This document shows positions 27,119 through 45,705 of a DNA stretch of 64,000 nt, piece by piece. Below the pieces are notes generated by a model. The model made no database searches. It was not told where the DNA came from and saw only the letters and a program-made list of their open reading frames with translations. How positions within the stretch are numbered: the first letter of the stretch is position 1; the number at the start of each line of letters is the position of its first letter. Origin of the DNA: Chrysogorgia sp. JL179-B06 (lineage: Eukaryota > Cnidaria > Anthozoa > Scleralcyonacea > Chrysogorgiidae); contig JAYKKM010000209.1 of NCBI GenBank assembly GCA_035772405.1, positions 992,001 through 1,056,000 on the forward strand, read 5' to 3'. Position numbers and translations under genes: made by a program.

Positions 27119-27124
27119 ATAAGA
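27119..27124. repeat. Polinton target-site duplication, left copy
   Basis: ATAAGA immediately precedes the left terminus; the identical ATAAGA follows the right terminus at 45700-45705. Six bp is the standard Polinton duplication. Confidence 0.95.
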
Positions 27125-27292
27125 AGTAGTATAGCAAGTAGGGCTGCGAGCCCAATCGACTTCAAACGTGAATATAAACACCAAAACATCACCAAATTTG
27201 CCAAATCACGATTCGACAAATTTGACGATGTTTTGGTGTTTATATTCACGTTTGACGTCGAATAAGCTCGCAGCCCTACTTGCTATACTACT
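27125..27292. repeat. 168-bp palindrome at the very left end
   Basis: The first ~80 bp (AGTAGTATAGCAAGTAGGGC...) recur inverted at the inner side and finish with GCCCTACTTGCTATACTACT at 27292. The arms also share CGTGAATATAAACACCAAAA. Each TIR could therefore fold on itself. Confidence 0.93.
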
Positions 27293-27894
27293 ACAGCGAT
27301 CGTTAGTCAATCTAGACACCCTTCGCACGTTTTCTACTAAATTGATGTCAAACACACGCGAGACTAGCGAAACAATACCAAGTTTATACTAAATTTGACA
27401 CCATTTCGGCCACATTTAAAAAATAGAAAGTGTCGTTTCAAAATTCTCACAAATTACATTTAGGAAAAAATAGAGTGTCATTTCAACATTTTCGCGTGTT
27501 AAAAAAAATAAAATGTGGTACGAGCCCACTCTCACATATTAAAAAATAGAGAGTGCCGTTTCAACATTTTCATAAATTTGTCAAATCACATTTAAAAAAT
27601 AGTCGTTTCAACATTTTCACAAATTTGTCAAATCACATTTAAAAAATAATCGTTTCAACATTTTCACAAATTTGTCAAATCACATTTAAAAAATAGAGAG
27701 TGTCGTTTCAACATTTTCACAAATTTGTCAAATTACATTTAGGAAAATAGTCGTTTAAACATTTTTACAAATTTATGTATCGTAAAAGTGTCTCACGCGT
27801 GATAAAGTTGCCACCTGTTATGCAAATTAGGTTATTGCCACCTGTTAATAATAGATTAGTCCGTTTGTTCACTATTTTCAGTGTTTGTCGCCTC
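27125..27894. repeat. Polinton left terminal inverted repeat
   Basis: About 770 bp match, as the reverse complement, the segment 44924-45699, with a few small indels. The inner end covers the last dozen codons of the polymerase gene. Subterminal units of roughly 50 bp (TCGTTTCAACATTTTCACAA, ATTTGTCAAATCACATTT) repeat at about 27540-27740. Confidence 0.93.
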
Positions 27895-30072
27895 ACCTCT
27901 CACTTCAATGTTTTTGTGACCATACGCGTAGGAGTCAATACCATTTTCTAAAAGGTATCGTTTATCATCAAAACAGGATAGCGATACTTTATTAATTTCA
28001 TAACTACCGAGCTGATGTTTGGCACTTCTAATGGTCTTCATTGTGTGCCGCAATTGTTTCTGCTCAAGTAACACACTTTTATAATCTTCGTGTCTGATCA
28101 CTTTTTTAATTATATTCTTTCTAATACCTTTAGCGGTTTTCCCGCCGCCTCCACCCTCTTTCAAATAGCTGTACATTTTACTGCGCAACCCGACGAACTC
28201 AACAATTGGCGTTCCAGCGCACTCGTCCTTCATCTTCCCAATAACTTTCTTATTCTCTCTAAAAAAGAATGGACTGTCTGCAGGATAGTCGCTATTGTCG
28301 AACTTTTCGCACTCCATCATAAAGTCGGAATAAACGTCGTCAGTTTTGATTGAGTACAACAGACTGTCAGTGTCAGTGAAGTGCAATCTACAGGTGTCGC
28401 TAGAGTACTTTTTCATAATATAATTGTAGTGAAAATTGTACATCAGCGTTTTACTCAAGTCTAGTATGCACATACCCACATATGCAGGTCTATTTAGTGT
28501 CAGCGTTTCTTTAACCTTATGGACAGCGACTAAGTTCTCGCTAAATATTTTGCAAGACACAAACGTCGGCTTCGAGACAAGCTTTTCTAATTTCTCCGCA
28601 GTGGTCACTAATCTTACGTCCACACGCTTCCTCAAGTTTTCCATCGTTTTTCCGAACACACTGTTGTTCATCAACTTGAAGAAGTCCTTCTCAAAAGCGT
28701 TCTTAGCCGCAGTTCTTTTGACTGTGTTAAAGTCGATGTACTTACCTAGCCACTTGGACTGGTCAAACTGCAGGACCCTGTGAATCTTATTGATTTTTAA
28801 TCCAAGATCCATGTACAACTGCAGATTTCCGTAGTGACACACATACTTTTTTTTGTCCATCAAATTAGTCACCAGCTTCTTCACACCACCAACACTCACG
28901 TTAAACTTATTTTTGATTTTCGTGCAGTACTCCGACAACATGTCAACGGTTATCTCCATCTTCTCGGGAGCCAACGGGTAATCGTTGTGTAGGTCGTGCA
29001 AATGGGCTGGGTACTCCAAGTCGACTTCGAGCAGTAAACCTTTTTTACTATTGTTGTGATAGTCGTGCAGATTAACTTTTTCTATTTCTTTCTCAGTCAA
29101 CCACTTGAAGCCGCCCGTAGGTAGACTTCGACTCATTGCCCATCCGTACAAGTTGTTGGCGTCAAGGTACATCAAATACTTCGACTCTTGCTCTTTGTCA
29201 TACCCCTCCATGTACTTATTATTCGCCACGCCATGTCTGTTGCATATGTAGCTCACACCACCACGCATACCTAATTCTACGAACTGGAACATGTCAATGT
29301 CGGACAATAATTCGAGTTCCACTCCAGTCATCTTTAACATAGCATCCCAAGCCAATCCGGGTGATGTGAAATAATGGCAAGGGTCTAATTTATACTCGCG
29401 ATGGCATGTCTCTCTAAAGTTCTCAAAAACGTCAGCAAGTAAGAGCACATCGCTTTTCAAATACAGGTCGTGATACTCACCCATATTTTTAACGTCGAAG
29501 TAGTCCCACACATCGATGGCACGCTCGTGCATTTCTTCCGCAATGTGCTCGTCGTTCAGAACGCTGTAGAAATCTTTTTTGGAGGGTAGCTCGCACTCAT
29601 CGAATTTTTCAAAGGAGTCCATATAATCATAAGGGTAGACCCCCTTTCTTGTCATGAGTGCCAACCCCTCATCACGAAACACTTCTGATGTGTATTTGAA
29701 AGCGTCCCTTGGTAGGTTCTTCACCAAGTTGTCTAGACCACTACTCATGAACTGAAAGCTGTCCAAGAACACCAAGTTTTTTCCAAGCATGAACGCCATG
29801 TACTTCTCCATGTTGTTCGGTATCACATTTATGTCTTGACCAAACTTGCCAATTTCCTGCATAATGAAATGACTATCGTAGCCGCGTAAGTTATGAAAGA
29901 TCACAGGAATTTTGTCAGTCAACTTAAAGTTCACTTTACACTGACGATGCGCAGACCCTCTGTACTTACCTGACATGTGACAGTGGTCTCTCACTCTAAC
30001 GTCAGCGCTAGTGTACTCAACACTACAAATAGATGTCTTTTTACTCAGATGTCTTTTTACAATATTCAACAA
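27856..30072 (-). CDS. polB: Polinton DNA polymerase B, C-terminal part (exo II, exo III and polymerase domain)
   Basis: This is a protein-primed family-B replicative polymerase. Visible motifs in order: exonuclease II FHNLRGYDSHF (about residue 59), exonuclease III YLKSDVLLLADVF (about 204), motif A DANNLYGW (about 304), motif B MNNSVFGKTMEN (about 472) and motif C DTDSLLY (about 572). A DHCHMSGKYRGSAH zinc-like segment lies near its start. The frame begins in an overlap with the N-terminal half, which is in another phase. A 14-bp direct repeat (30031-30044 and 30047-30060) marks a 16-bp duplication that explains the shift. The last dozen codons (ending NSEQTD) lie in the left TIR. All polymerase residues look intact. 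Confidence 0.93.
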   Translation of the reverse strand: MLNIVKRHLSKKTSICSVEYTSADVRVRDHCHMSGKYRGSAHRQCKVNFKLTDKIPVIFHNLRGYDSHFIMQEIGKFGQDINVIPNNMEKYMAFMLGKNLVFLDSFQFMSSGLDNLVKNLPRDAFKYTSEVFRDEGLALMTRKGVYPYDYMDSFEKFDECELPSKKDFYSVLNDEHIAEEMHERAIDVWDYFDVKNMGEYHDLYLKSDVLLLADVFENFRETCHREYKLDPCHYFTSPGLAWDAMLKMTGVELELLSDIDMFQFVELGMRGGVSYICNRHGVANNKYMEGYDKEQESKYLMYLDANNLYGWAMSRSLPTGGFKWLTEKEIEKVNLHDYHNNSKKGLLLEVDLEYPAHLHDLHNDYPLAPEKMEITVDMLSEYCTKIKNKFNVSVGGVKKLVTNLMDKKKYVCHYGNLQLYMDLGLKINKIHRVLQFDQSKWLGKYIDFNTVKRTAAKNAFEKDFFKLMNNSVFGKTMENLRKRVDVRLVTTAEKLEKLVSKPTFVSCKIFSENLVAVHKVKETLTLNRPAYVGMCILDLSKTLMYNFHYNYIMKKYSSDTCRLHFTDTDSLLYSIKTDDVYSDFMMECEKFDNSDYPADSPFFFRENKKVIGKMKDECAGTPIVEFVGLRSKMYSYLKEGGGGGKTAKGIRKNIIKKVIRHEDYKSVLLEQKQLRHTMKTIRSAKHQLGSYEINKVSLSCFDDKRYLLENGIDSYAYGHKNIEVRGEATNTENSEQTD

Positions 30073-31417
30073 TTTCTAACATCTCCCCAATGAACTTGTT
30101 GACTGCATTTTCACCGCGATACACTTTCACTGGCTTACTGTACTCATTGTCATAGCAACAAACTAATTTGTACCCATAGCCACAGTCAACGTGTCTCTGA
30201 TAAGCGTTTGTGTAGCTACACTCGCTTGACAGCTTTGTTGTGTGCACCTTCTGTGTGATAGCCTCGAAGTCTGCATACACCACAAATGGTACGTTTAGCT
30301 GTCTACTAAAATTCTCGTATTTCACTTTCGCACCTTTTTGCGGCATTTTAATAGCTTGCTTCCCATTAATAACCAAACACACTTCAATATGACTTTCAAG
30401 CACGTCCGCACGGGTGAAACACTGCAAACAATACCTACAAAAGTGCTTTCTCGCCTTATACTTTGTCTGACGGTACATGAATTTGTTAAAATCGCGAATG
30501 TACACATAATGCTTGTTGCCCACGTCGTTAGTTATCAACAATAGGTCCATATGGTCAGGATACGCTTCCTTAGAAACGTACACAGGGAATGGCTGCAAAT
30601 TTTCGTACCCAAAAACATTAATGCTAATATCGTTTGCCTTTTCGATCTTGTTGTAGTCTTTGAGTGTGACTGGGAAGTCAATTCCGTCATAGTCCAGCTC
30701 ACCGACATGCCTAGCGTACTTCGACGTTCTATGAGAGTGTTTTCCAACAGGAAACTTATGCGCAAGGTGGCACCATCTAAAGCACTCGTTGTCATCATCG
30801 TTATTTACGTTTATCAGACCCTTCATACTGTTGCGCAGCTCCTTTGGCAACGCAATGTAGCTACTCCCATGCAAAGGTCTGTAAATAGCGACATTGACGT
30901 AGTGCGCATCTATTTTGTCGATAGTCCATCCAGACCCCTCAGATAACCACCCAGCTATCCGCGTCAAGATTTGTTCCGATCCACGATTGGCGACACCCTC
31001 GATGTCATGCTCGTTAATGACGACGAACGTCTCGCTGTTAAAGTAGGCAGTTTTGTATGTGGTCTTATTGAGTTCTAAAACTTTCTCAAAAGTGACCTTG
31101 ACTGTCTCCACCACTTTCATTCCGTTGGTCTCACCTAGTTCACGTCTCAAAAGGTTAGTGACAGCACTTCTACTACCATTTACCTGATTGATGTCTCTGT
31201 CGTCAATTACCTCGACTCCATAAGACCTTGTGAACCCTCTCAGTGCTCGATCCAACAGATGCGTTGACGGTGCGAGGTCTTCGACTACAGGTTGTGTTTC
31301 TTGGTCTCTAAAGAAGCCGTGAACGTTGGTCGCTTCATCTGTTAGTGAATTGACAACGGCTGCACTCGTCTTATGCGCCCGTCTTTTTTTCAGCGGGTTT
31401 TTCACAGTCCGACTCAT
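30041..31417 (-). CDS. polB: Polinton DNA polymerase B, N-terminal part (exo I)
   Basis: This N-terminal part starts at ATG 31415-31417 (MSRTVKNPLKKRRAHK). It contains a C2H2-like finger (CRYCLQCF...SHIEVC) at about residue 325-350 and exonuclease motif I VVYADFEA near 385. It ends prematurely at TSE because of the small duplication at 30031-30060; the rest of the enzyme follows in another phase at 27856-30072. The start overlaps the stop of the upstream gene by 4 bp (ATGA), so the two are likely co-transcribed. Both halves together would have the usual ~1200-residue Polinton length. Confidence 0.9.
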   Translation of the reverse strand: MSRTVKNPLKKRRAHKTSAAVVNSLTDEATNVHGFFRDQETQPVVEDLAPSTHLLDRALRGFTRSYGVEVIDDRDINQVNGSRSAVTNLLRRELGETNGMKVVETVKVTFEKVLELNKTTYKTAYFNSETFVVINEHDIEGVANRGSEQILTRIAGWLSEGSGWTIDKIDAHYVNVAIYRPLHGSSYIALPKELRNSMKGLINVNNDDDNECFRWCHLAHKFPVGKHSHRTSKYARHVGELDYDGIDFPVTLKDYNKIEKANDISINVFGYENLQPFPVYVSKEAYPDHMDLLLITNDVGNKHYVYIRDFNKFMYRQTKYKARKHFCRYCLQCFTRADVLESHIEVCLVINGKQAIKMPQKGAKVKYENFSRQLNVPFVVYADFEAITQKVHTTKLSSECSYTNAYQRHVDCGYGYKLVCCYDNEYSKPVKVYRGENAVNKFIGEMLEIVEYCKKTSE

Positions 31418-31992
31418 TGGCTTCTATATACTACACTTGTTTTTTTCCTAAACCACTCGTCGTAATAATTGTCGCCACTTTCGCACCATCCTAGCTTTGG
31501 GTACACCACCCCAAACAAATTATCGTCGAACAAGTCTTTCACCTTTCCGTCTTTAAGGTCTGACACCTTCTCAAGTGTCTCGAGTTGTCTTCTATGGCAC
31601 AACCTAATAATGTAGTATCCGTATCTGCTGACGTTTCTACCCTTTATCAAATTGCATGAGTACAACACATTGACAACTTTCAAGAAGTCCTCTTTTATTG
31701 ACTCAAGGTGCTCACCCTTCACAACATTCCGTAGTCTCCTCCCCATCCACCAAGACCGTTTGTGGACGCTTTTTAGTCGCGTGAGTCTCATGTCGCTGTA
31801 ACTCTGAGTGTAACCCCATTCGGTGTCGCCACACTTTGGACACGCGTACCCACCGCAGTCAGTCACATGTTTCACAACGTCACAATCCGAGCAGTAGTAA
31901 ATTCTGAAGGCGTCTCCACACTCAGTTTGCGTCTCGCTCGCGATCTCGTCAATTGTCAAGCCATAACTCATCTGCCTCATAAGTTTGTCCAT
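31414..31992 (-). CDS. Polinton zinc-ribbon protein, possible VLTF3-like transcription factor
   Basis: This 192-residue protein has a clear zinc ribbon near the N-terminus (YCSDCDVV ... YACPKCGDTEW; C-x2-C and C-x2-C). A helical region follows (RLKSVHKRSWWMGRRL, FLKVVNVLYSCN). A zinc ribbon followed by a helical basic domain is reminiscent of the late transcription factor VLTF3 of large DNA viruses, but I cannot confirm homology. It sits just upstream of polB with a 4-bp overlap, consistent with a replication or transcription role. Confidence 0.6.
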   Translation of the reverse strand: MDKLMRQMSYGLTIDEIASETQTECGDAFRIYYCSDCDVVKHVTDCGGYACPKCGDTEWGYTQSYSDMRLTRLKSVHKRSWWMGRRLRNVVKGEHLESIKEDFLKVVNVLYSCNLIKGRNVSRYGYYIIRLCHRRQLETLEKVSDLKDGKVKDLFDDNLFGVVYPKLGWCESGDNYYDEWFRKKTSVVYRSQ

Positions 31993-32017
31993 CGCTTATA
32001 CTACTCCAACATTTTTT

Positions 32018-32437
32018 TCACCGAACTAGTACCCGTAGCGCTATTCCACTACCCAAACCTAACGCACCAACAAACAATAATTGGTATTCCTTCATTTCCG
32101 CACTCGGTTGGTAGTAATCCGCAATCTTCGGGAGGTCAGTGAACACTCGTCCGCTGTACTGTATGGTCATTACGCTTCTAAGTTCTTCCAACGCGTGGTT
32201 TGTGTCGTTGATGTCAGCGTTAGCATCAGAGAGCCGTTGTCGTAAACGCTGGATCTTATCTTTCTTGGCGACTTCATTTTCATACCACACTTCTTTCGCA
32301 CTGGCTAGCTGTTCCAACGCGTGGTTGTGTCTTTTCATCTCAGCTTCATAACCCGAGTGATTAAACTTCGAAAACATAAAGCCAGCGCCTGCAAAAGCCA
32401 CTGCATTAAATATCCCTCCAGCCACAACGCTCGCCAT
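32018..32437 (-). CDS. Polinton coiled-coil membrane protein
   Basis: This 139-residue protein has an N-terminal hydrophobic helix (GGIFNAVAFAGAGFMF), a central coiled coil (about 35-90, KIQRLRQRLSDANADI) and a C-terminal membrane segment (LLFVGALGLGSGIALRVLV). Such two-span coiled-coil proteins are common among Polinton small genes and may be virion membrane-active components; that role is inference. It follows the next gene upstream after 4 bp. Confidence 0.65.
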   Translation of the reverse strand: MASVVAGGIFNAVAFAGAGFMFSKFNHSGYEAEMKRHNHALEQLASAKEVWYENEVAKKDKIQRLRQRLSDANADINDTNHALEELRSVMTIQYSGRVFTDLPKIADYYQPSAEMKEYQLLFVGALGLGSGIALRVLVR

Positions 32438-32441
32438 TAAC

Positions 32442-32684
32442 TTACATTGATTTGAATGGATCTGTCGGTATCCACTTTTTCGATTGCACCCATTTTACTA
32501 ACAGCGTTCCTGCACCAACAGCTGCAGCAAGTTTCACTGTGCCTTTCACTGTCTCTGGTGTTCCCAATGGTTCCCCCAAAGCCTTTTTAGAAATCATACT
32601 CACTGCCACAGCGCCAGTCGTAACAAGTAGCGCGTCATACAATTCGTTCATAAGTTCTTTTCGATCGATCGCAGCCATATACAT
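32442..32684 (-). CDS. Polinton small membrane protein
   Basis: This 80-residue frame has ATG at 32682-32684 and a second ATG two codons later (MAAIDRKE). Hydrophobic stretches (LLVTTGAVAVSMI and TVKLAAAVGAGTLLVKWV) suggest one or two membrane passes. I do not recognise the family. It is packed tightly between co-directional neighbours. Confidence 0.6.
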   Translation of the reverse strand: MYMAAIDRKELMNELYDALLVTTGAVAVSMISKKALGEPLGTPETVKGTVKLAAAVGAGTLLVKWVQSKKWIPTDPFKSM

Positions 32685-32699
32685 TGTCGTGTGTTTTGT

Positions 32700-33029
32700 T
32701 CAAGAATCAAATGTGTCTAACGCTGGACGACGAGTTTTGTGGTTCTCTGACACAGGTGCTGGTGTAGCGCTCACTTTTTCACTACTAATTGTGTACCATA
32801 ACGAAGCGGCGGCGATGATAACACCAAGTGTTCCAACAATGTAACCATAGCTCCACTCACCACCCTGTTCTTCGTTGACTATCATTTCACGCATTTTCTT
32901 TTCTTTCGCAGCTTTCGATATCTCAGCCAACTTTCTACCAGCAGCGACGCGCTTTGGGTCCTTCACCTTAACACTTTTCACATCAGCTGTGATCTTAGCG
33001 TCGACAGCCGTCTGTGAGTCTTCAACCAT
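32700..33029 (-). CDS. Polinton basic protein with one transmembrane segment
   Basis: This 109-residue protein has a lysine-rich N-terminal half (KDPKRVAAGRKLAEISKAAK), then a membrane span (YIVGTLGVIIAAASLWYTI) and a Ser/Pro-rich tail. The RVAAGRKLAEISKAAKE pattern recurs in Polinton and adintovirus small proteins as I remember them, but no function is assigned. It is first in the minus-strand block reading to polB. Confidence 0.65.
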   Translation of the reverse strand: MVEDSQTAVDAKITADVKSVKVKDPKRVAAGRKLAEISKAAKEKKMREMIVNEEQGGEWSYGYIVGTLGVIIAAASLWYTISSEKVSATPAPVSENHKTRRPALDTFDS

Positions 33030-33160
33030 CTAATACACTATCACGTGTTATCTTACTCACAGTTGACCTCACAGGTGCCTCACAGTTGACCTCACAGGTA
33101 TCTCGCAGTTCCAGACCAAACGCACTAAAAAATTAGGATTTTTTCTGGGAGTATAACATA
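33030..33160. promoter_or_regulatory. Divergent intergenic control region with repeated 21-bp motif
   Basis: Between two divergent Polinton gene blocks, the motif CTCACAGTTGACCTCACAGG occurs twice in tandem (33057-33097), followed by a partial copy CTCGCAG. A TA-rich stretch (GTATAACATAATG) leads into the plus-strand start. Confidence 0.55.
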
Positions 33161-33931
33161 ATGACTCAAGTCCAAGACATCGCAGAAGAGATGACTCAAG
33201 ACCAAGCCCGCCAAGAAGAGGAGATCGACGCAATGCGGAGAATGTCCTTTGTCGACGTGTCTACCCCACAAGGCGCCTCTGGACCCAACGTCTTAAAAGG
33301 GTACTCGCAAGTCTTCAAGTTGTGCGACCCCGATCGTAAAAACGAAGAGGTGTCGAGACAATTTGGTGCCCAGATTCTCTACACAAAGTTCGCTCATGAG
33401 GCTTGGGTCGGGCTTGATGAAGTTAGAGCCAACAGGGTGGTTAACGAACTAGCCAAGATGATCCCTGTGTGGTGTTACTCACCATTCAAACGTCTTACGT
33501 TAGCAAGTAGCCACTACTTGAGCAACCCTTGCGAGTCCGCCGCTACACTACTCGGTAACTACCTCGAAGTGTTCTTGGCGACCCTTCTATGGAAACCATG
33601 CTCAACCAAAGCCAAAGCGTGGCTAGAGCTCGCCGCAAACTGTGACGCCAACGTTTGTAGGGTGGGGTGTAATGAAATACTAGGTGCGGGCGATATTATG
33701 AGTCACATACTCTCAGACGCTCACCTGGATTTTGTGCACGGCGGCGCGTCGTACAATTGTTACCCATGTGGTGTGGTTACCAACAACCCAATGCATCGCT
33801 CAAGACACGAGAGCTCGAGGTCCCATCTTAAAAACTTAGAGCTTCAGCGGATATTTAACAACGAGCAACAGTTGCCGCAAGAGGGGAGAGCATTTCTCTG
33901 GAGGTATAGTAACCATGAAGAAAGTTGGTAA
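33161..33931 (+). CDS. Polinton protein of unknown function (Cys/His-rich C-terminal half)
   Basis: This 256-residue protein starts at ATG 33161 (MTQVQDIAEEMTQDQA) with a Gln/Glu-rich N-terminus. The C-terminal half has many Cys and His residues (CDANVCRVGC, HILSDAHLDFVHGG, NCYPCGVV, HRSRHESSRSH), suggesting metal binding. I do not recognise it. Its end overlaps the thymidine kinase start by 17 bp, so the two are a transcriptional pair. Confidence 0.65.
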   Translation: MTQVQDIAEEMTQDQARQEEEIDAMRRMSFVDVSTPQGASGPNVLKGYSQVFKLCDPDRKNEEVSRQFGAQILYTKFAHEAWVGLDEVRANRVVNELAKMIPVWCYSPFKRLTLASSHYLSNPCESAATLLGNYLEVFLATLLWKPCSTKAKAWLELAANCDANVCRVGCNEILGAGDIMSHILSDAHLDFVHGGASYNCYPCGVVTNNPMHRSRHESSRSHLKNLELQRIFNNEQQLPQEGRAFLWRYSNHEESW

Positions 33932-34487
33932 ACTAGAAATCGTGATTGGTCCCATGTTTGCAGGAAAAACAACCGAGACTCTTCGCAGGTTAGTCACGTT
34001 AAGTAAGTCAGGGCTCAAAGTCCTCTACATGAACAACACAGGTGACACTAGGCGAACTGACCACACGTTCTCCACACACCGTCAGACCATTGTTGTTGGA
34101 TCAGACAGTTTACCTGCGAAGTTAATCACCAACCTCCCAAGTTCTTCCGAGATAGCTGATTATGACGTCATCGGCATTGATGAGGGCCATTGGTACTCTG
34201 GGTTACTCCCAATTATTCGCGAATACATTAAAGCCGGCATTCACGTCATTATTTGTGGTCTCATAACAACAGAGCACTTAAAAAGACTTGGTGAGCTCGA
34301 CACACTGTCCCCAGTAGCGGACGACATCACGTTTCTAAAAGCGTATTGCGTCGTTTGTCGTGACACTTACGGAACAACTGTTGAAGCGCCATTCGGTTGG
34401 AGATACAACCCAGGACCATCATTCGTTGGTGGTGCTGAGCAATACCGTGCAGTGTGCAGACGTCATCATCCTTCCACACAAAATTAG
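33915..34487 (+). CDS. Thymidine kinase, type II (TK1-like)
   Basis: This enzyme would phosphorylate thymidine to dTMP with ATP, feeding the element's own DNA synthesis. The 190-residue length is normal for the family. Visible: P-loop GPMFAGKTTETLRR at about residue 10; the D-E-G segment VIGIDEGHWY near 90 (usual form DEGQFF, so the catalytic Glu is kept); GLITTEHLKRLGEL; zinc site CVVC and, near the C-terminus, CRRH in place of the usual second CxxC; and the lasso segment FVGGAEQYRAVC. The start ATG at 33915 overlaps the previous gene. I do not recall thymidine kinase in the canonical Polinton set. Confidence 0.9.
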   Translation: MKKVGKLEIVIGPMFAGKTTETLRRLVTLSKSGLKVLYMNNTGDTRRTDHTFSTHRQTIVVGSDSLPAKLITNLPSSSEIADYDVIGIDEGHWYSGLLPIIREYIKAGIHVIICGLITTEHLKRLGELDTLSPVADDITFLKAYCVVCRDTYGTTVEAPFGWRYNPGPSFVGGAEQYRAVCRRHHPSTQN

Positions 34488-34533
34488 GGGTGTTCTCGAA
34501 TACCCCACTTTTTTAAATTTAGACATTGGTCAC

Positions 34534-34656
34534 ATGGAGCGTCCAATGTATCGTAGAAACGTTTTTTCACACAGTGGTCAGAAGGTTTGTGAAATAAAGA
34601 GAGAAAGTTTCGCAGACACCTTTTACCAAGTTAAAAACGTCTTTAGAAAATGCTAG
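34534..34656 (+). CDS. Small possible ORF (40 aa)
   Basis: ATG at 34534 opens MERPMYRRNVFSHSG and closes at a TAG at 34656. A GGGGTGTTCTCGAATACCCC hairpin sits just before it (34487-34506). It lies in the gap between convergent thymidine kinase and BRO genes and may be only chance. Confidence 0.25.
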   Translation: MERPMYRRNVFSHSGQKVCEIKRESFADTFYQVKNVFRKC

Positions 34657-34709
34657 AACAGTTGTCTCAACAATGAGAACGAGTGTTAATTCGACTCATT
34701 ACTCACTGT

Positions 34710-35477
34710 CTAAAAAGTCTCTTTACAATAACGTCTCTCATGGTTACTCAACGCTGATTTATTTTTAAATTTACGAAAACACTGAGAGCACTGAAACCCA
34801 ACGTCAAAGAGATATTTTATCACTGTGGTAATAGCGTCGTCATATGAGTCGCACAAGAGTGTTAGATAACCAGCGGATTTGTATCTGAGCAACAGAGACT
34901 CCTGCTCTTTGGACGTCTTGCCTGTGCCACCTGGATTCTTGAACTCAATCACAAGCCCGCTATGCTGTCGGTTTGCATTGGCAATAATCAAGTCAGGCGT
35001 TCCACGTTGGTAACCTTTTTTCCACGAACTTATTCTTTTACTCGAAGTGTCTTGATTCTCACCACAAGCGGCTATCAAAATAGCTTCTGGATAATATTTC
35101 CTAAGAAAACCAACAACTTTCGTATGAAGGTCGAACTCAGTGATCATTTTAAACTGATTGTGTTTGAGACCGACGTCAGCCACAGTCTTTCTAATGCTTG
35201 GTAAGACTTCTGAGTGCACCCACCTTCCAAAGTGTTTCGCACGCTCCATTTTACTTGAGAACACTAACGAGTAGACCCCAAGTTCGTTGATAAATGAGGC
35301 CTGCTCCATCTTCATTTTACAATCAGGTTCGACGTGGTCGTTTACTGCATCTTTTGGTCGAGCATAACCTAGAGCGCTCGCGACTTCTTTCGCTTTGAAC
35401 CATATTTCACCGTTGTGGTTAACCGTCGTGATTTGGTGACCATCGAAATCGAATAATCGAAGTGTTGCGGAAGTCAT
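34710..35477 (-). CDS. BRO-N domain fused to VRR-NUC nuclease and C2H2 finger
   Basis: The ATG at 35475-35477 (MTSATLRLFDFDG) is preferred to the upstream in-frame GTG at 35495; a CTATATA box lies at 35480-35486. Residues about 5-105 form a BRO-N domain (GEIWFKAKEVASALGYARP, HVEPDCKMK, FINELGVYSLVFSSKMERAK, RWVHSEVLPSIRK). Residues about 150-200 match a VRR-NUC nuclease (GTPDLIIAN, GLVIEFKNPGGTGKTSKEQE). The C-terminus has a single C2H2-like finger (CSQCFRKFKNKSALSNH). BRO-N proteins are known from baculoviruses, NCLDV and phages. Fusion to a nuclease suggests a DNA-targeting or repair role; that is inference. Confidence 0.85.
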   Translation of the reverse strand: MTSATLRLFDFDGHQITTVNHNGEIWFKAKEVASALGYARPKDAVNDHVEPDCKMKMEQASFINELGVYSLVFSSKMERAKHFGRWVHSEVLPSIRKTVADVGLKHNQFKMITEFDLHTKVVGFLRKYYPEAILIAACGENQDTSSKRISSWKKGYQRGTPDLIIANANRQHSGLVIEFKNPGGTGKTSKEQESLLLRYKSAGYLTLLCDSYDDAITTVIKYLFDVGFQCSQCFRKFKNKSALSNHERRYCKETF

Positions 35478-35503
35478 CGCTATATAGTCCTCCACGAAAA
35501 AAA

Positions 35504-35644
35504 CTACTCGATGTGGGTGTAAGGTTTTTTATAGATCTGGTTTGTTGTGTACCAACGCATCAGGTGTGTTTTATTAGTCCTCAGTTTTCTACGTCGTCTG
35601 AAAAAGTTTCTAATGTTACGAGCCAGTTTTCTAAGCCAACCCAT
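35504..35644 (-). CDS. Small arginine-rich protein (46 aa)
   Basis: An ATG at 35642-35644 opens a short frame, MGWLRKLARNIRNFFRRRRK, ending at TAG 35504-35506. It lies right after the stop of the 68-residue gene and just before the BRO gene on the same strand. The strongly basic, amphipathic N-terminus suggests DNA or membrane binding, comparable in character to small core peptides of DNA viruses. No homology is claimed. Confidence 0.45.
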   Translation of the reverse strand: MGWLRKLARNIRNFFRRRRKLRTNKTHLMRWYTTNQIYKKPYTHIE

Positions 35645-35650
35645 TTTAAC

Positions 35651-35857
35651 TTAGGTCACGTCTCCTACCACTCCTACTTTGTCTGACTCTGGTAACGTAA
35701 TAGGTTCGCCATAAGTCTTTTTAGACCTCATACCAATCTCAGCGTGGAGCTCGAGAGTCACGTCACCGCGACCAAACGATCCACCAGCTTTGAACATGTG
35801 ATCAGTCGTCTTATTTATTTTATATATTTCATGAGGTCTCGAAAAACATGCTCCCAT
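35651..35857 (-). CDS. Small Polinton protein with myristoylation-type N-terminus
   Basis: This 68-residue frame starts MGACFSRPHEIYK, a good N-myristoylation/palmitoylation signal (MGxCFS). The rest is soluble in character. It directly abuts the fibre-like gene on the same strand (stop at 35858). It could be a virion or membrane adaptor; I do not recognise it. Confidence 0.55.
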   Translation of the reverse strand: MGACFSRPHEIYKINKTTDHMFKAGGSFGRGDVTLELHAEIGMRSKKTYGEPITLPESDKVGVVGDVT

Positions 35858-36808
35858 TTACTTTACACCATATTCCTTCATCATCTCTCCACCCATGATT
35901 ATGATGTCTCGGTTTGTCATGTAACCACTCACAATTTTCACACCGTAGAACTCTATCAACGATGGGTATGCATAAGGTGCGAGTGGTATTCTTGGTCGAT
36001 GTATTCCAAAAATCGTTCCATAGGGTGTGCCTATTTTTTTCATATTCGCTATGAAGTCTGAGTCGGCTGACTTAACGTTGTTGACCCTGACATGTGAATT
36101 GCTCATTTGCCAGTGTATTGATATCATATGCATTTTGGTGAGGTCAACACCACTCGGAATAGTGCATATGCTCTCCATCGCTGGGATGCTACCACCATAC
36201 GCGAGTCCATTAGTCATACCAGTCTTGTACCCTATGAACTTATCCCACTGACCGTCGTCGTTTGATATAATTGTCTCCCAATTTGATCCAGCGGTGCGAG
36301 TAGGCAACCTCACCACAACAAAAATAGAGAGATCGCACCATTGCATACTGGGGCAATTAAAATGAAGACCTGACTCAAGTGGGATTGGTGTTAACACAGG
36401 GGATAGAAAACTTTGACTCACACCGCTGATGCCGACAATAGGACCATAAGCTGGGTTGTTTTGCACTAACTTACTTGTTTCACCAATGGCTTTCACTTTG
36501 TTTGAACCACTGGTGTGAAATTCCACGTTTCTCAAGGCATGTGTGCTAACGTTGAAGTCGAGCACAACGTTGTAGGACTGACTCTTGAGGTAGCTTGATA
36601 GTAGCTGCTCTAGAGTTCTTTTATTGGTAGCGTCTGAGTCATCGACTGGGTCTGCTACGTTTTTTATCGCTGAGCCTTGCATGTCTATTATTCCAGACAT
36701 CCTCCCACCGGTCGCACTTAATTTAGGATCTTCGTCCAGATGTCTTTTCGTTCTCTTTAGTATTTTATCGTGAGGGTCGTCAGACTCATACCCATAGTTT
36801 AGACTCAT
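35858..36808 (-). CDS. Fibre-like attachment protein with lectin-like C-terminal domain
   Basis: The N-terminal ~70 residues (GGRMSGIIDMQGSAIKNVAD, DSDATNKRTLEQ) match the short repeat style of viral tail-fibre shafts. The C-terminal ~200 residues look like a concanavalin/LamG-type beta-sandwich (LSIFVVVRLPT, NWETIISNDDGQWDKFIGY, MISIHWQMSNSHVRVNN). By analogy this would be the receptor-binding spike of a Polinton particle. It lies in the minus block with other probable structural genes. The function is inferred; no fold search was done. Confidence 0.6.
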   Translation of the reverse strand: MSLNYGYESDDPHDKILKRTKRHLDEDPKLSATGGRMSGIIDMQGSAIKNVADPVDDSDATNKRTLEQLLSSYLKSQSYNVVLDFNVSTHALRNVEFHTSGSNKVKAIGETSKLVQNNPAYGPIVGISGVSQSFLSPVLTPIPLESGLHFNCPSMQWCDLSIFVVVRLPTRTAGSNWETIISNDDGQWDKFIGYKTGMTNGLAYGGSIPAMESICTIPSGVDLTKMHMISIHWQMSNSHVRVNNVKSADSDFIANMKKIGTPYGTIFGIHRPRIPLAPYAYPSLIEFYGVKIVSGYMTNRDIIIMGGEMMKEYGVK

Positions 36809-36810
36809 TA

Positions 36811-37245
36811 CTACTTCAAGGTGTATTTGGTTAGTAGATAGCCAGAGACTGCTGAGAACCCTAACACTATCGCCAGCGTTGTCGTGTCTGACTTACTTGT
36901 GGTGGTGGCCACTGTTTTTTTCACAGGAAGTGGTGTCACATTTTCTTGGTAAACTTTTTTAGCCACCACATTTTCTTGGTGAACTTTTTTAGCCGCAAGA
37001 CTCGCTGGCGTTACTAAGTTAGTCACCACATTTTCTTGGTGGACTTTTTTAGCCGTAATTGTTGGTGTTGTTGCATTCAAGCTAGTGTTCACCCCAAATT
37101 TCATGGACTCTGTAGCAACCTTTAATAAGTTGTTGTACCCAGCGATTTTATTCTTGAGTATCACTAGGTTACTTGGCATTAACCATGTACTTGGTGACAC
37201 TGCAAGATTTTGGACAACGTTGGTGTCTCTAATTGATTTGTTCAT
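36811..37245 (-). CDS. Polinton repeat-containing membrane protein
   Basis: This 144-residue protein has three copies of a short repeat, AKKVHQENV, AKKVHQENV, AKKVYQENV, at about 65-105 and a C-terminal transmembrane span (TTLAIVLGFSAVSGYLLTKY). It sits 2 bp from the fibre-like gene, so the two probably work together. No known family. Confidence 0.6.
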   Translation of the reverse strand: MNKSIRDTNVVQNLAVSPSTWLMPSNLVILKNKIAGYNNLLKVATESMKFGVNTSLNATTPTITAKKVHQENVVTNLVTPASLAAKKVHQENVVAKKVYQENVTPLPVKKTVATTTSKSDTTTLAIVLGFSAVSGYLLTKYTLK

Positions 37246-37260
37246 GTTGAGAATCCATGT

Positions 37261-38295
37261 TTACACGTCATACTGTACAACGCTGTCAGAAAACAACTTG
37301 CGGAATTCTTGTTGGGTCTCTAGACTTCCTGCAGAACCACCAACGACTGATACACGTGTTCTCGCTTGCGCACCAAGTGTGGAGTACACAAAGGCTTCTA
37401 TGCTTTGATTTAGATATTGCAGTCCAATGTTGGTGAAGCCGTCTGACAATCTCGCGACGTATCGTCTGTAATCGTTATGGATGTCGTTGAGTGTGAAGAC
37501 TCTGGTCTCGCCTGTTGTGCCATCGCTCAGGACTTTATTCTGGTAGTAATGCTTTTTGGGAATCTTGGAAATCTTACCATACAATTCGGAAGCGTTAAAT
37601 TCTCTACTTATTGATTTCATAGTCTCACCACCCTCCATTCTTCTGAGAAGTCTTCTAATGGTGAAGTACAAATGAAATCTCATTACACTTGTGACCACGG
37701 GGTGAACTTCTTGTGACACTGATAAATGTTGCAATGACACCCCACAACAGAAACTCGCACAATACGTTGCAAACACAACGCGATAGTAAGATTCGCTGTC
37801 ATCCCACTCTGATTTTGTCTTTGACGTGGTGACTCGCAAGACTGGTAGCTTTGACATGAAGTAGCTATTTTGGTTAACAAAGACTTTAAAGTTATTCACT
37901 GGGTAGTTTAACACGTTTTCTGTTGGGTAACCATCCCAAAGTCCCCAACGGTTTTTATGACCTTTTGGCAGTGGTTGGATAGTTCCACCACCTTGCCATA
38001 TTATTGGGAACTTACTATTGTGTAGCCACTTCCACATGCTTTTATCATTTTTGAAGGTTGTGCTGGTTATGTCTGTGCTGAGGATGTCGTTGTTTCTGAA
38101 ATACACATCGACACTCATGATCTTACCATCTTGCAAAATATTTGGATAGAACTCGAATTTGCTTAAAGTGGCGTGAGGGTACTTTTTGATGAGGTCTGCC
38201 TTTGCGTCGTGTGCGGCCTTTGACGTGTTAGCCATCGCGAGTTTGTAGTACTTTCCATAGTAGTCACGAAGGGCTTTCTGCATATAATATACCAT
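37261..38295 (-). CDS. Polinton conserved-type protein, function unknown
   Basis: This 344-residue protein opens at 38295 or, more likely, at the second ATG at about 38283 (MQKALRDYYGKYYK). Distinct blocks: WQGGGTIQPLPKG, NNFKVFVNQNSYFMSKLPVL, ESYYRVVFATYCASFCCGVS, MRFHLYFTIRRLLRRM. It resembles hypothetical proteins I associate with cnidarian Polintons, without a named function. It is not recognisably the adenain-like protease. It diverges from the capsid-like gene at 38296 with start codons touching. Confidence 0.65.
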   Translation of the reverse strand: MVYYMQKALRDYYGKYYKLAMANTSKAAHDAKADLIKKYPHATLSKFEFYPNILQDGKIMSVDVYFRNNDILSTDITSTTFKNDKSMWKWLHNSKFPIIWQGGGTIQPLPKGHKNRWGLWDGYPTENVLNYPVNNFKVFVNQNSYFMSKLPVLRVTTSKTKSEWDDSESYYRVVFATYCASFCCGVSLQHLSVSQEVHPVVTSVMRFHLYFTIRRLLRRMEGGETMKSISREFNASELYGKISKIPKKHYYQNKVLSDGTTGETRVFTLNDIHNDYRRYVARLSDGFTNIGLQYLNQSIEAFVYSTLGAQARTRVSVVGGSAGSLETQQEFRKLFSDSVVQYDV

Positions 38296-39006
38296 ATGTT
38301 ATACATAATGCGAAAGTTGACGGTATTCATTGAGGGTGCAGAAAAAGTTGTGTCCTTTGACAACGCGATAATGGTCACGCACGACAACCCGTGCATTATG
38401 GTTAAGACAGCTACTGTGTTTTGGGACTACAATAACATACGAGATGATTTCGACATACTTGCCCCCACTCTGAGCCACCCTTCGAGCGATCTTAAAAGCA
38501 CGATAACGAGTAGGGGGTACGCTAACTTCGACACACTGGTCGAAGTGATAAAAGAAACGACTAAAAACCGTGGTAGGGGGGACGTTGAGATAGAGAAAAT
38601 ACCGCTCACAAGTAGATGTAGGATTAAGGCTAGCACTCCAGTTGATCTTGGACTCGTTGGGCCTCTACTTGGTTTCGCGTTGGGTAGGGTGATTAAGGGT
38701 GACTCGAAGTGGTACGTCAGCCCAAACGAGGTCGACATGCTTAGAGGTCTGAAGTACGTAGAAATCTTATGTGATATTGTTGAAACTGAGAGCAATGTGG
38801 GTATTGATGGGAAGCGAAGCAGTGTGATCACAACGTTGCCAATACCCACTAAACAGTCTTTGAATGGGTCAGTGCAACGTCATGTGGACATCGAGTCTAA
38901 GGTGAGTATTAAAAAAGGTGCTTACTCAAGTATGACATTTCGTGTCAAACCAAATAACGACGATCCCAAAATTGGTGCGGTGTTATTGGAACTGTATATT
39001 GTGTGA
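38296..39006 (+). CDS. Probable minor capsid (penton-like) protein
   Basis: The start is ATG 38296 or the in-frame ATG at 38308 (MRKLTVFIEGAEKV). The 236 residues are rich in alternating hydrophobics typical of a beta-sandwich, ending with HVDIESKVSIKKGAYSSMTF and IGAVLLELYIV. Size, position just before integrase and the capsid cluster, and the C-terminal pattern fit the single-jelly-roll minor capsid of Polintons. This is inferred, not shown by a diagnostic motif. Confidence 0.45.
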   Translation: MLYIMRKLTVFIEGAEKVVSFDNAIMVTHDNPCIMVKTATVFWDYNNIRDDFDILAPTLSHPSSDLKSTITSRGYANFDTLVEVIKETTKNRGRGDVEIEKIPLTSRCRIKASTPVDLGLVGPLLGFALGRVIKGDSKWYVSPNEVDMLRGLKYVEILCDIVETESNVGIDGKRSSVITTLPIPTKQSLNGSVQRHVDIESKVSIKKGAYSSMTFRVKPNNDDPKIGAVLLELYIV

Positions 39007-39011
39007 ATTAT

Positions 39012-40115
39012 ATGGAGCTTGGTGTGGAAACAGAACAAGGGCTGCGAGACATCTATTATAATCCCAAGACAGGGTTCAGTGGTGTAGAGAGGTTGTATCA
39101 AAGCGCATTGGGAGACGGATTGAAAGTAACTAGAAAAACAGTGAAAGAGTGGTTGACAGCGCAGGACACTTACACTAGGTACAAACCTATTGTGAGAAGA
39201 CACAAGTTCCGCGCGACTTTTGTTGGGTTTCTTGGTGAAGAGCTCCAAATGGACTTAGTGGACATGAGTAAGTACTCAAAACAGAACGGAGGTTATTATT
39301 GGATATTGACAGGTGTTGAAATATTGAGTAGATACGCTTTTGGTATTGCGGTTTACAGAAAAGACACTAAGAACATGACTAAGGCTGTTGGAAAATTGTT
39401 GAACGACTTCAAAGATCGGTTTGGAACCACACCTAAGTTAACGCAATTTGATGATGGACTCGAGTTCTACAATGTTGGGGTGAAAAGTTTGTTGAAAGAA
39501 CACGACGTTGAATATTTCAGCACTAAGAGTGATAAAAAGGCCGCTGTTGTCGAGCGTTTTAATAGAAGTCTGAAGAGCATTATGTGGAAGTACTTCTACG
39601 CCCATGGAACGTACAAATGGATTGACGTTTTGGATCAGTTTGTAAGCAATTACAATAGCAATGTGAACCGAAGCATTATGATAAAGCCGAAGGATGTCGA
39701 TAAGTCAAACGAAGGCGAAGTGTGGACCACTTTGTTCGGTCATCAATTTGCAGACAACCCATTGCCAAAGTTTAGAGTTGGTCAATCAGTGAGAATTAGT
39801 AAATACAAGAGTGTGTTCACAAAGGGCTATGAAGCCAACTTCACTGAAGAGCTGTTTAAAGTGGTGAAGGTTACTCGTGGCGATCCGAATGTGTACGAAA
39901 TTGAGGACCACACCGGTGAACAGATTATTGGTAAATTTTATGAACAGGAATTATCGCTAGTCAATAAGAAACCTGGTGACGATGTGTACAGAGTTGAAAA
40001 GGTGTTGAAAAGAAAGAAAGTCAGAGGGAAGAAGATGGCGCTGGTCAAATGGTTGGGTTACGAGAGCAAACATAACTCATGGATACCAGAAAGCGATATT
40101 CAAAATGTGAGCTAG
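39012..40115 (+). CDS. Polinton integrase (RVE) with C-terminal chromodomain
   Basis: This retroviral-type integrase joins element ends to host DNA and makes the 6-bp duplication. The start ATG at 39012 (MELGVETEQG) follows an in-frame GTG at 39003 by three codons. The catalytic triad is visible: LQMDLVDMSKYS (first Asp, about residue 80), LTQFDDGLEFYN (second, about 140) and AAVVERFNRSLKS (Glu, about 177). The C-terminus has an SH3-like region and a chromodomain (YRVEKVLKRKKV, LVKWLGYESKHNSWIPESDI), which may guide insertion to chromatin. Confidence 0.95.
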   Translation: MELGVETEQGLRDIYYNPKTGFSGVERLYQSALGDGLKVTRKTVKEWLTAQDTYTRYKPIVRRHKFRATFVGFLGEELQMDLVDMSKYSKQNGGYYWILTGVEILSRYAFGIAVYRKDTKNMTKAVGKLLNDFKDRFGTTPKLTQFDDGLEFYNVGVKSLLKEHDVEYFSTKSDKKAAVVERFNRSLKSIMWKYFYAHGTYKWIDVLDQFVSNYNSNVNRSIMIKPKDVDKSNEGEVWTTLFGHQFADNPLPKFRVGQSVRISKYKSVFTKGYEANFTEELFKVVKVTRGDPNVYEIEDHTGEQIIGKFYEQELSLVNKKPGDDVYRVEKVLKRKKVRGKKMALVKWLGYESKHNSWIPESDIQNVS

Positions 40116-40121
40116 TGTAAT

Positions 40122-41072
40122 ATGGCCGAAGGTGGCTTCGACGACCTTGAGATGGGTAGCTCTAACGAATACAAAGATGTCACTGACGACGAACTAAAGT
40201 ATAGTCTTGAAAGAGCCACTCAAGATCGCGAACTATCTCGGAACGATCCAAACGTCACAGCCGATGAGAAAATTAGACTAATTAGAGTGGAGAGTGGACT
40301 GAGGCGCGAACGTGATGTAAGATTTCGTCAACACATGAAGGAGGATTTTAACGATATTACAACGCGGGTTAATGACATCGTAAGAGATCGTGAAGACGTT
40401 GCGGGGAGTGCGTCATTGTTAGACACCACACACGCAGAGTACGTCGACATACCTGGACTAACACCAATCGAGAACCGCGAGCTGAATAGCGTGCTCAATC
40501 CAGGTGAGAATGTGACGTCTGAGTTGAGAGTAGGCGACACTGGCACATTGCAAATACAAGCAGACCATTTTCAAGACTCGATAAACGAAGCGAGCAAAAG
40601 AATAGCGGAGCTTGACAGAGAGGACCTCACGATCGCAGAGAACGAAGAGTTCATCGATCTAGCTGAAAGAATGATTGGACTTAGACGGGCTAGAGACATG
40701 GTTATTGAACAGCGAGAAATGGAGGAAGTTAGAGAGCAGCAGGAAGTCGACATTGACAGATTGCAGAAGTTCAAGAAATGGGTTAGAGAAAATATGGTTG
40801 GGTTGAGTGCTTTAGCGATTTCAGTAGCTGCGATTATAACAACTATTATTATCGCTGGGAGGTCTGCTGTTATGAGAGGCGCTATGGTCACGAGATCATT
40901 CGCACAGGCTGTTAAAAACGCGATAATTAAGATAGGTCCATGGGCTGTTGAATTAGCGAACTTAGTTTACGACGCGCTGGCGACAGGCGCAAAGGGCCTC
41001 GCTTGGTTAGCTCAAAATCTGTGGGTGTTTGCGGTGACATTCGCGTGGCTTGCGTACAATTATCTAAACTAA
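40122..41072 (+). CDS. Polinton membrane protein, copy 1 of a tandem pair
   Basis: Starts MAEGGFDDLEMGSSNEYKD. Central charged helices (QQEVDIDRLQKFKKWVREN) precede a strong transmembrane span (VGLSALAISVAAIITTIIIA). The C-terminal hydrophobic region reads GAKGLAWLAQNLWVFAVTFA. It is paralogous to the next gene along the N-terminal ~10 residues and the C-terminal ~180. Probably a particle membrane-active or fusion-like component; function unknown. Confidence 0.75.
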   Translation: MAEGGFDDLEMGSSNEYKDVTDDELKYSLERATQDRELSRNDPNVTADEKIRLIRVESGLRRERDVRFRQHMKEDFNDITTRVNDIVRDREDVAGSASLLDTTHAEYVDIPGLTPIENRELNSVLNPGENVTSELRVGDTGTLQIQADHFQDSINEASKRIAELDREDLTIAENEEFIDLAERMIGLRRARDMVIEQREMEEVREQQEVDIDRLQKFKKWVRENMVGLSALAISVAAIITTIIIAGRSAVMRGAMVTRSFAQAVKNAIIKIGPWAVELANLVYDALATGAKGLAWLAQNLWVFAVTFAWLAYNYLN

Positions 41073-41130
41073 AAGCAAATGTGACTCGTGGGAGTCAGAG
41101 AGCGATATTCAAAATGTGAGCTAATGTAAT
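41073..41130 (+). pseudogene. Leftover of the integrase gene end between the duplicated membrane genes
   Basis: The stretch GAGCGATATTCAAAATGTGA at 41099-41118, followed by GCTAATGTAATATGG, repeats the last codons of the integrase, its stop and the leader of copy 1 (40092-40125). The duplication therefore began inside the integrase chromodomain codons. Confidence 0.8.
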
Positions 41131-42570
41131 ATGGCTGAAGGTGGGGAAGTTTTTGACGAGATCGAGATGGAAACCCTCAATAAGTACGAAGACATGAGTG
41201 ACGAGCAATTAGAAAAGACGCTCGTCGATGTTGAAGATATTGTTGGAGGCATGTACGGTAAGTACACTGAAGACAACATGCCGGAAGACGTTCGTGTTAA
41301 TTACAACGACTATCAAGACCAAGCGAAAAAGATAAGGAGTGAGCTAGACGCGAGACGAGATTGGCAAAAAGAGACGCCATTTATTGACACTGATGATGGT
41401 AAGACGGTGACGATAAGGGGGACCAACACAGAAGTCCCTGCAGTGGAGTTTGTTGAGCAGGAGTCATATGGTGATGTCAATGACGAGAGTTTTAGTATAG
41501 CTTTTGAAGAGGGGAAAGAAATTGAGAGAAGGCTGGGCGAGCTAAAAGCATCCAACAAAAAGCTAACAGAAGACAACGTAAAAAGAATCAAGCTAATAAA
41601 CAAGAAAATACGTAAATTAAGCAAAAAGGCACTCGGTCTCGACGACGCGTCAAGGAAAATAGTCAACAGGTCGCAGGTTACGGACTCGGGGGCTATTCTT
41701 TTCAAACCGGTAAACAAAGACGGTAAATATGGAAAACCCAAACTAATTCTAAAACCTGGGAAAAAAGGTTTGATCTACAGTAAAGACGCGAGTAGTAAAA
41801 ACGCGATCGAGCAGTTCAAAAAGTTAGTTAGTCAAATCCCTGAGAATGCAGAAACAACAGTTGTCACAACAGAAGTGGCCTCAGACGACCTCCCAGTGAT
41901 TGAGACAAGAGTGGATCACGACGACATACCTGGGTTATCACCAGACGAGAACCGTGATCTGAGTGGTGTGGTTAATCCAAGCGATAGTGTGGTGCCTGAG
42001 TCAAGAACAGGTGACGATGGTGCGTTGCAAGCGCAGGTAGACCACTTTCAAGAGACGATAGATGAGACGAGTGGGAGATTGGCAAAGCTTGATAAAAAAA
42101 CTAACCAAACTGGTCTCACGCCTGACGAAGAGCGAGAGCACGTTGGTTTGGTTGAAAGAGAGTCAGGACTCAAGCAAGCCAGAGACAGAACTATTGAGCA
42201 GCGACAAATAGAGGAAGTTAGAGAGCAACAAGAGATCGACATTGACAGGTTTCAGAGATTTAAGGAATGGGCTAAAGAAAATGTAGTTGGGTTGAGCGCT
42301 GTGGCAATTTCAGTGGCTGGGATTATAACAACTATTATTATCGCTGGGAGGTCTGCTGTTATGAGGGGCGCTATGGCTACAAAGTCATTCGCACAGGCTG
42401 TTAAGAACGCAATCACGAAGATGGGTCCATGGGCTGTTGGGTTGGCTAATTTAGTTTACAATATGCTGACGTTGGGTGCAAAGGGTCTCGCTTGGTTGGC
42501 TCAAAATCTGTGGGTACTCGCGGTGGTACTTGCGTGGTTTGCTTATGACTATTACAAGCTAAAACGGTAG
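41131..42570 (+). CDS. Polinton membrane protein, copy 2 (longer)
   Basis: Starts MAEGGEVFDEIEMETLNKYE. It shares IPGLSPDENRDLSGVVNP-type and EVREQQEIDIDRFQRFKEWA segments, the transmembrane span and the whole hydrophobic C-terminus with copy 1. It has an extra Lys-rich middle part (about residues 100-240, IRKLSKKALGLDD, GKPKLILKPGKKGLIYSK). The extra block could come from the ancestral gene, lost in copy 1, or be new. Confidence 0.75.
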   Translation: MAEGGEVFDEIEMETLNKYEDMSDEQLEKTLVDVEDIVGGMYGKYTEDNMPEDVRVNYNDYQDQAKKIRSELDARRDWQKETPFIDTDDGKTVTIRGTNTEVPAVEFVEQESYGDVNDESFSIAFEEGKEIERRLGELKASNKKLTEDNVKRIKLINKKIRKLSKKALGLDDASRKIVNRSQVTDSGAILFKPVNKDGKYGKPKLILKPGKKGLIYSKDASSKNAIEQFKKLVSQIPENAETTVVTTEVASDDLPVIETRVDHDDIPGLSPDENRDLSGVVNPSDSVVPESRTGDDGALQAQVDHFQETIDETSGRLAKLDKKTNQTGLTPDEEREHVGLVERESGLKQARDRTIEQRQIEEVREQQEIDIDRFQRFKEWAKENVVGLSAVAISVAGIITTIIIAGRSAVMRGAMATKSFAQAVKNAITKMGPWAVGLANLVYNMLTLGAKGLAWLAQNLWVLAVVLAWFAYDYYKLKR

Positions 42571-42592
42571 TAACAAAACATATGCAAAGTAT

Positions 42593-43831: not shown

Positions 43832-43846
43832 ATCAAACGTGGGTTA

Positions 43847-44446: not shown

Positions 44447-44449
44447 AAT

Positions 44450-45699: not shown

Positions 45700-45705
45700 A
45701 TAAGA
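45700..45705. repeat. Polinton target-site duplication, right copy
   Basis: ATAAGA, identical to 27119-27124. Confidence 0.95.

Follow-up and report, generated by a model that had tools for sequence, protein, structure and literature searches.

A putative TK1-type thymidine kinase gene under apparent purifying selection in a high-copy Polinton family of the cnidarian Chrysogorgia sp. JL179-B06

We found that a Polinton in the genome of Chrysogorgia sp. JL179-B06 carries a gene predicted to encode a TK1-type (type II) thymidine kinase (TK), and that this gene is apparently kept by purifying selection across a Polinton family that is present in many copies. The window that we analyzed is a stretch of 64,000 nucleotides (assembly GCA_035772405.1, contig JAYKKM010000209.1, positions 992,001 to 1,056,000 of the forward strand); the TK gene occupies 33915-34487 of the window on the + strand. 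We consider it probable that one Polinton family is an integrating cnidarian virus whose regular genes include a functional deoxynucleoside kinase of the TK1 type. We infer the activity of the enzyme, its substrate and its benefit in non-dividing cells. In the role that we propose, TK would be made while the element replicates and would use ATP to phosphorylate thymidine, or a close analogue, to dTMP. Host enzymes would convert dTMP to dTTP, on which the DNA polymerase encoded by the element could draw, and this would help the element to be copied in cells whose S-phase TK1 is off. The original prediction named dTTP as what the enzyme could supply; strictly, dTMP would be made, not dTTP.

Three lines of evidence support a TK1-fold enzyme at 33915-34487: the sequence profile, the structure model and the catalytic residues. 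The frame is open from ATG to TAG and encodes 190 amino acids, and there are many stops on the opposite strand. In 200 single-base shuffles of the letters of the element, the longest ATG-started open reading frame (ORF) had a mean length of 112 amino acids and was never longer than 187, which rules out a chance ORF. The Pfam TK profile (PF00265) matched the protein at 3.7e-27, scoring 95.8 bits where the cut-off is 20.6, and the match spans residues 5-185 and positions 1-176 of the 176 positions in the profile, its full length. A search of PDB sequences matched the protein to human TK1 at 5.1e-19. The AF2 model had a pLDDT of 85.7, and its best solved neighbors in Foldseek were vaccinia TK (8.0e-15) and human TK1 (1.8e-14), along with trypanosomatid TKs; TMt was 0.78-0.88 against the human, pox and trypanosomatid TKs listed. 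The best matches among viral models were the TKs of a marseillevirus, squirrelpox virus, a fish herpesvirus and giant viruses.

The catalytic and structural motifs are also present. The P-loop GPMFAGKT lies at residues G12-T19, the segment IDEG at residues 88-91 (D89 and E90 being the catalytic Asp-Glu), and the zinc site consists of C145xxC148 and C181xxH184. Using residue numbers of human TK1 transferred through the PDB sequence alignment, we found that the window TK keeps the counterparts of human K32, D58, R60, D97, E98 and Y181, and that these are kept in 81-83 of 83 aligned TKs. The original prediction had called the protein TK1-like on the basis of the GPMFAGKT, DEG and CxxC/CxxH motifs. 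All three occur in the 190-residue frame, the identity is borne out by the profile match, the modeled fold and the catalytic residues, and structure modeling, which had been named as the step at which the call could fail, returned the TK fold with the vaccinia and human enzymes nearest. A misread packaging ATPase was also considered and was rejected, as the ATPase is a separate gene at 43847-44446.

The element around the gene spans 27125-45699 (18,575 bp), and the 20 ORFs counted cover 88% of it. It is bounded by terminal inverted repeats of approximately 770 bp at 27125-27894 and 44924-45699, which are 98.6% identical over 776 columns with 5 mismatches and 4 gap openings. An identical 6-bp target duplication, ATAAGA, lies on both sides of the element (27119-27124 and 45700-45705). 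On the + strand, there is a retroviral-type integrase with a chromodomain at 39012-40115 (Pfam Chromo, 6.4e-11; rve, 4.2e-06, at 27.4 bits, below Pfam's cut-off of 32.6), a double-jelly-roll major capsid protein at 42593-43831, and an A32-type packaging ATPase at 43847-44446 (Pfam Pox_A32, 9.7e-17). The capsid protein had 438 relatives and a model with a pLDDT of 79.4, and Foldseek matched this model to the capsid proteins of PBCV-1 (4.9e-14), mavirus (4.1e-10), Sputnik (1.1e-09) and an iridovirus. The Polinton setting put forward originally is thus confirmed by the inverted repeats, the 6-bp duplications, the integrase, the packaging ATPase and the capsid protein.

Other parts of the element were less easily recognized. 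Seven candidate motif strings of DNA polymerase B were found across two ORFs on the - strand, a putative C-terminal piece at 27856-29976 and a putative N-terminal piece at 30041-31417; the strings include a presumed exonuclease motif in the N-terminal piece. Against expectation, there was no match to either piece in Pfam, PDB, PHROGs or NCBIfam. The frame is interrupted between the two pieces in the window copy, and because of this the window copy may not be autonomous. There was no Pfam match to an adenovirus-type cysteine protease or a penton-like protein among the 20 ORFs at E ≤ 0.1, and the ORF at 38296-39006 (+), which had no family match, is a candidate minor capsid (penton-like) protein by a guess at its name. 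A Bro-N domain, a VRR-NUC nuclease and a C2H2 zinc finger, recognized by profile matches (that of the C2H2 finger falls below Pfam's cut-off), are fused in one 255-residue protein encoded at 34710-35477 on the - strand, convergent with TK. No Rfam family matched anywhere in the window. Other mobile elements lie in the flanks (15968-16828 and 24568-25092), represented by a DDE_Tnp_4 transposase and a fragment of a reverse transcriptase.

TK is present in the genome in many copies. In the 780,986,399 bases of the own genome that we searched, a 20-base word from TK had 1,719 matches with up to 3 mismatches, compared to 24 for the reversed control word. A search with the TK protein gave 1,943 candidates, of which the best 150 were scored. 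Every one of these spanned residues 1-190, with 94-100% identity, and an internal stop was absent from 149. The number of TK gene copies therefore appears, from these sequence searches, to be well over a thousand, and the candidates and word matches together rule out a single-copy oddity. A 20-base word from the tip of the element had 4,934 matches, compared to 56 for its control. Because the palindromic tip holds the word twice, giving four words per element, this corresponds to approximately 1,200 elements with recognizable ends. If full-length, approximately 1,700 copies would amount to about 32 Mb, or 4% of the genome, an upper figure because many copies may be partial. A first look at the ATPase gave 3,965 candidates (150 scored), about twice the number for TK, so part of the related elements in the genome may lack TK. 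Each inverted repeat opens with a palindrome of approximately 168 bp made of two arms of about 84 bases (27125-27292 and 45531-45700), and the tip words listed mostly occur as pairs in opposite orientation, separated by about 150 bp, as in hairpin-like tips.

We compared copies of the element in three samples, the second and third chosen by hand along the lists, with no retrieved stretch dropped. The first (TK-picked) contained 20 of the best 150 copies by protein score, read in 8-kb stretches, and is biased to intact, slow-evolving copies. The second (ATPase-picked) comprised 8 of the 150 elements scored with the ATPase and is biased to elements close to that of the window. The third (word-picked) contained 40 of the 100 word matches listed and is biased to exact word matches. 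All 20 TK-picked stretches repeat the arrangement of the window, with TK between the gene at 32700-33029 and the Bro-N gene; this shows the place of TK, not its presence, because the stretches were chosen for TK. All eight ATPase-picked stretches contain a full-length TK at 92-95% identity with the orphan gene (see below) adjoining, and seven contain the Bro-N gene, the eighth ending at TK.

Median pairwise dN/dS of TK was 0.082 in the TK-picked sample (21 copies, biased to intact), 0.124 in the ATPase-picked sample (9 rows) and 0.15 in the word-picked sample (41 rows, broken copies included), with a median dS of 0.21-0.26. Other measured genes of the element had dN/dS of 0.10-0.13, and the orphan gene had 0.46-0.48. 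A relic evolving without selection is ruled out by the values of 0.08-0.15 in the three samples. Among the 40 word-picked copies, 27 were strictly intact, 6 ended 2-3 codons early and 7 were shifted or truncated; an ORF of at least 187 amino acids starting with M was present in 33. By comparison, a neutral simulation with substitutions only left 9.5% of TK copies stop-free. The 13 word-picked copies that fail the strict test for intactness count against our main reading. The repeats of the window element differ by less than 1% substitutions, compared to approximately 0.2 at silent sites between copies, which suggests that most TK divergence arose under selection. This divergence seems to come mostly from replicating lineages, before insertion, as judged from the repeats of one copy.

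The residues that would contact the nucleoside differ from those of human TK1. The contacts of human TK1 with thymidine include Phe128, Phe133, Phe101, Tyr181, Arg165 and Asp58, with Glu98 as the base, and Gln100 is absent from the contact residues named in the part of that source available to us (PMC8757434). In the window TK, Glu120 corresponds to Phe128, Leu125 to Phe133, Trp93 to Phe101 and Tyr177 to Tyr181, and His92 is found at the position of Gln100, next to Phe101. The window TK therefore lacks the aromatic thymidine pocket of human TK1, a feature that does not strictly define TK1 enzymes. The copies in the host genome keep the pocket changes, with Ile at position 125 in 11 of the 41 word-picked rows and 1 of the 9 ATPase-picked rows.

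Because positions in the thymidine pocket are changed, substrate preference may differ from that of human TK1. Taken further, the protein could be a TK-fold kinase with shifted specificity that phosphorylates another or a modified nucleoside instead of thymidine. The window TK and its four closest relatives all have His and Trp at the positions of Gln100 and Phe101 and Leu at that of Phe133; at that of Phe128 they carry Glu, Thr or Asp, none of which is aromatic. In the 83 aligned TKs, Phe is usual at 133 (71) and at 101 (75). In human TK1, Phe101, Phe128 and Phe133 touch the thymidine moiety (PMC8757434). However, the catalytic Glu, the sugar-side Asp and the lasso-loop Tyr are all kept in the window TK and its copies, and the 128 position varies among the 83 aligned TKs generally. 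We regard a shift away from thymidine as unlikely, and phosphorylation of thymidine by the window TK, with a benefit in resting cells, as likely.

A protein search gave 295 relatives; of the 120 listed, one was 83% identical to the window TK, three were 55-56% identical and 116 were at most 40% identical. A scan with a broad TK alignment located 36 loci; 28 of these were examined, and 25 remained in the tree once near-duplicates had been removed. In the phylogeny, a kind of check suggested along with the original prediction, the window TK and four relatives form one clade with support of 100/99; its placement, on a long stem (0.96) and in a tree that includes no named animal TK1, is weakly supported. 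Two alternative placements were not rejected, one with cellular TKs (p = 0.147) and one with a nearby unnamed sister group (p = 0.354).

Acquisition of TK from a large DNA virus rather than from a cell, which is compatible with the other readings, is a tentative suggestion to which we give a little less than an even chance. It is favored by the nearest rows outside the clade, which are metagenomic-type TKs and not the plant and protist cellular group, and by the best viral structure models (marseillevirus, squirrelpox virus, fish herpesvirus and giant virus TKs); the long stem, the weakly supported placement and the two surviving alternatives weigh against it. A cellular eukaryotic origin, which the tree test does not reject (AU p = 0.147), would also fit a TK of host or foreign origin that was caught once by a Polinton and is carried without function. 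Such a passenger is very improbable, given dN/dS of 0.08-0.15 at a median dS of 0.21-0.26, relatives at 83% and approximately 56% identity with the same pocket changes, and the presence of TK in all eight elements that were not chosen for it. A motif pattern for the host TK1 had 0 matches in the own genome, where an exon border may cut the motif.

The distribution of relatives differs between TK and the capsid protein. No cnidarian is named among the 120 TK relatives listed (of 295), whereas the same collection contains at least 37 capsid clusters from Paramuricea clavata, an octocoral: of the 120 capsid relatives listed (438 in total), 37 have a named source, which is P. clavata in every case, at 57-65% identity (the best capsid match among those listed is at 71%). 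Taken by themselves, these capsid matches point indirectly to a cnidarian host, probably an octocoral. TK seems to be absent from P. clavata Polintons, or too diverged there, as seen in a shared-word search in which most rows are nameless. Scans of viral_contigs with TK, the five-member TK clade, the major capsid protein and one polymerase piece found no relatives.

The element resembles animal Polintons/Mavericks (adintoviruses) in its inverted repeats, 6-bp duplication, chromodomain integrase, A32-type ATPase, double-jelly-roll capsid protein and candidate polymerase B motif strings, and differs from them in carrying a TK1-type kinase. Its TK is like pox, giant-virus and cellular TK1 (type II) enzymes in modeled fold, Walker A motif, catalytic Glu, CxxC/CxxH zinc site and lasso Tyr. 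In contrast to this likeness, it is only 24-30% identical to the top solved TKs listed in structural alignments, with changed pocket positions. The Bidna-class parvovirus segments called 'Tkoid' are also from a small eukaryotic DNA virus with a TK-like gene (PMC11071296); unlike the window element, they belong to a segmented parvovirus-type genome and not to an integrase-bearing Polinton. Cnidarian major capsid proteins are reported to fall outside the main Maverick-Polinton cluster (PMC10120064).

No Polinton TK was reported in the literature that we searched on Polintons/Mavericks and virophages, as far as the texts were available, and an earlier mention, for example for adintoviruses, is possible. 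In the sections available, TK is assigned to other virus groups (PMC4981718), is noted in an algal giant virus (PMC12085832), appears in the reference list only (PMC3751428), or is treated as a putative horizontal transfer in a nematode, with Mavericks discussed separately and no link drawn (PMC7593179). A term search found no mention of thymidine in the available text of PMC11071308, PMC10120064, PMC12220804, PMC7805220 and PMC9952930. The view offered at the outset, that TK is not a standard Polinton gene, agrees with this literature within the same limits.

Large DNA viruses typically encode enzymes that supply nucleotides. That selection has kept such an enzyme in an integrating element of 18.6 kb favors a viral way of life for Polintons, perhaps with replication in resting cells. 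It also makes this view testable, since TK can be assayed simply and its nucleoside-analogue substrates are known. The integrated herpesvirus-transposon Teratorn stands in contrast, as it is without TK, which its authors ascribe to the gene being needless after endogenization (PMC5601938). The maintenance of TK in the present elements argues against that explanation for this Polinton family. More speculatively, an animal Polinton lineage could be a nucleotide-salvage virus, with a kinase of remodeled pocket, replication outside S phase and approximately 1,700 endogenized TK copies, most of those sampled being near full length; we consider this broader picture conceivable but rather doubtful. 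The high copy number makes the genome a rich source for the study of Polinton activity in an animal.

The orphan gene at 33161-33931 (+), upstream of TK and overlapping it by 17 bases, had no homologue at E ≤ 0.001. It was matched in 19 of the 20 TK-picked stretches (only 12% of the gene aligned in L047, one of the 58-64% copies, and L053 gave no match), with 8 copies at 96-98% identity, 2 at 78-82% and 9 at 58-64%. This pattern suggests an interaction gene that evolves fast or has been swapped. In 3 of the 20 copies (L054, L060 and L064), the two genes at 36811-38295 are present in versions only 37-47% identical to those of the window, and TK is still 94-96% identical. By sequence comparison, this is apparently modular exchange within the Polinton family.

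A hairpin followed by a T run is predicted at the TK stop (34487-34514, +) in all 20 sampled copies; this G+C hairpin is weaker in one of them (L049). The convergent Bro-N gene also has a strong predicted hairpin at its 3' end (34710) in the window. These predicted hairpins may mark the 3' ends of the TK and Bro-N mRNAs.
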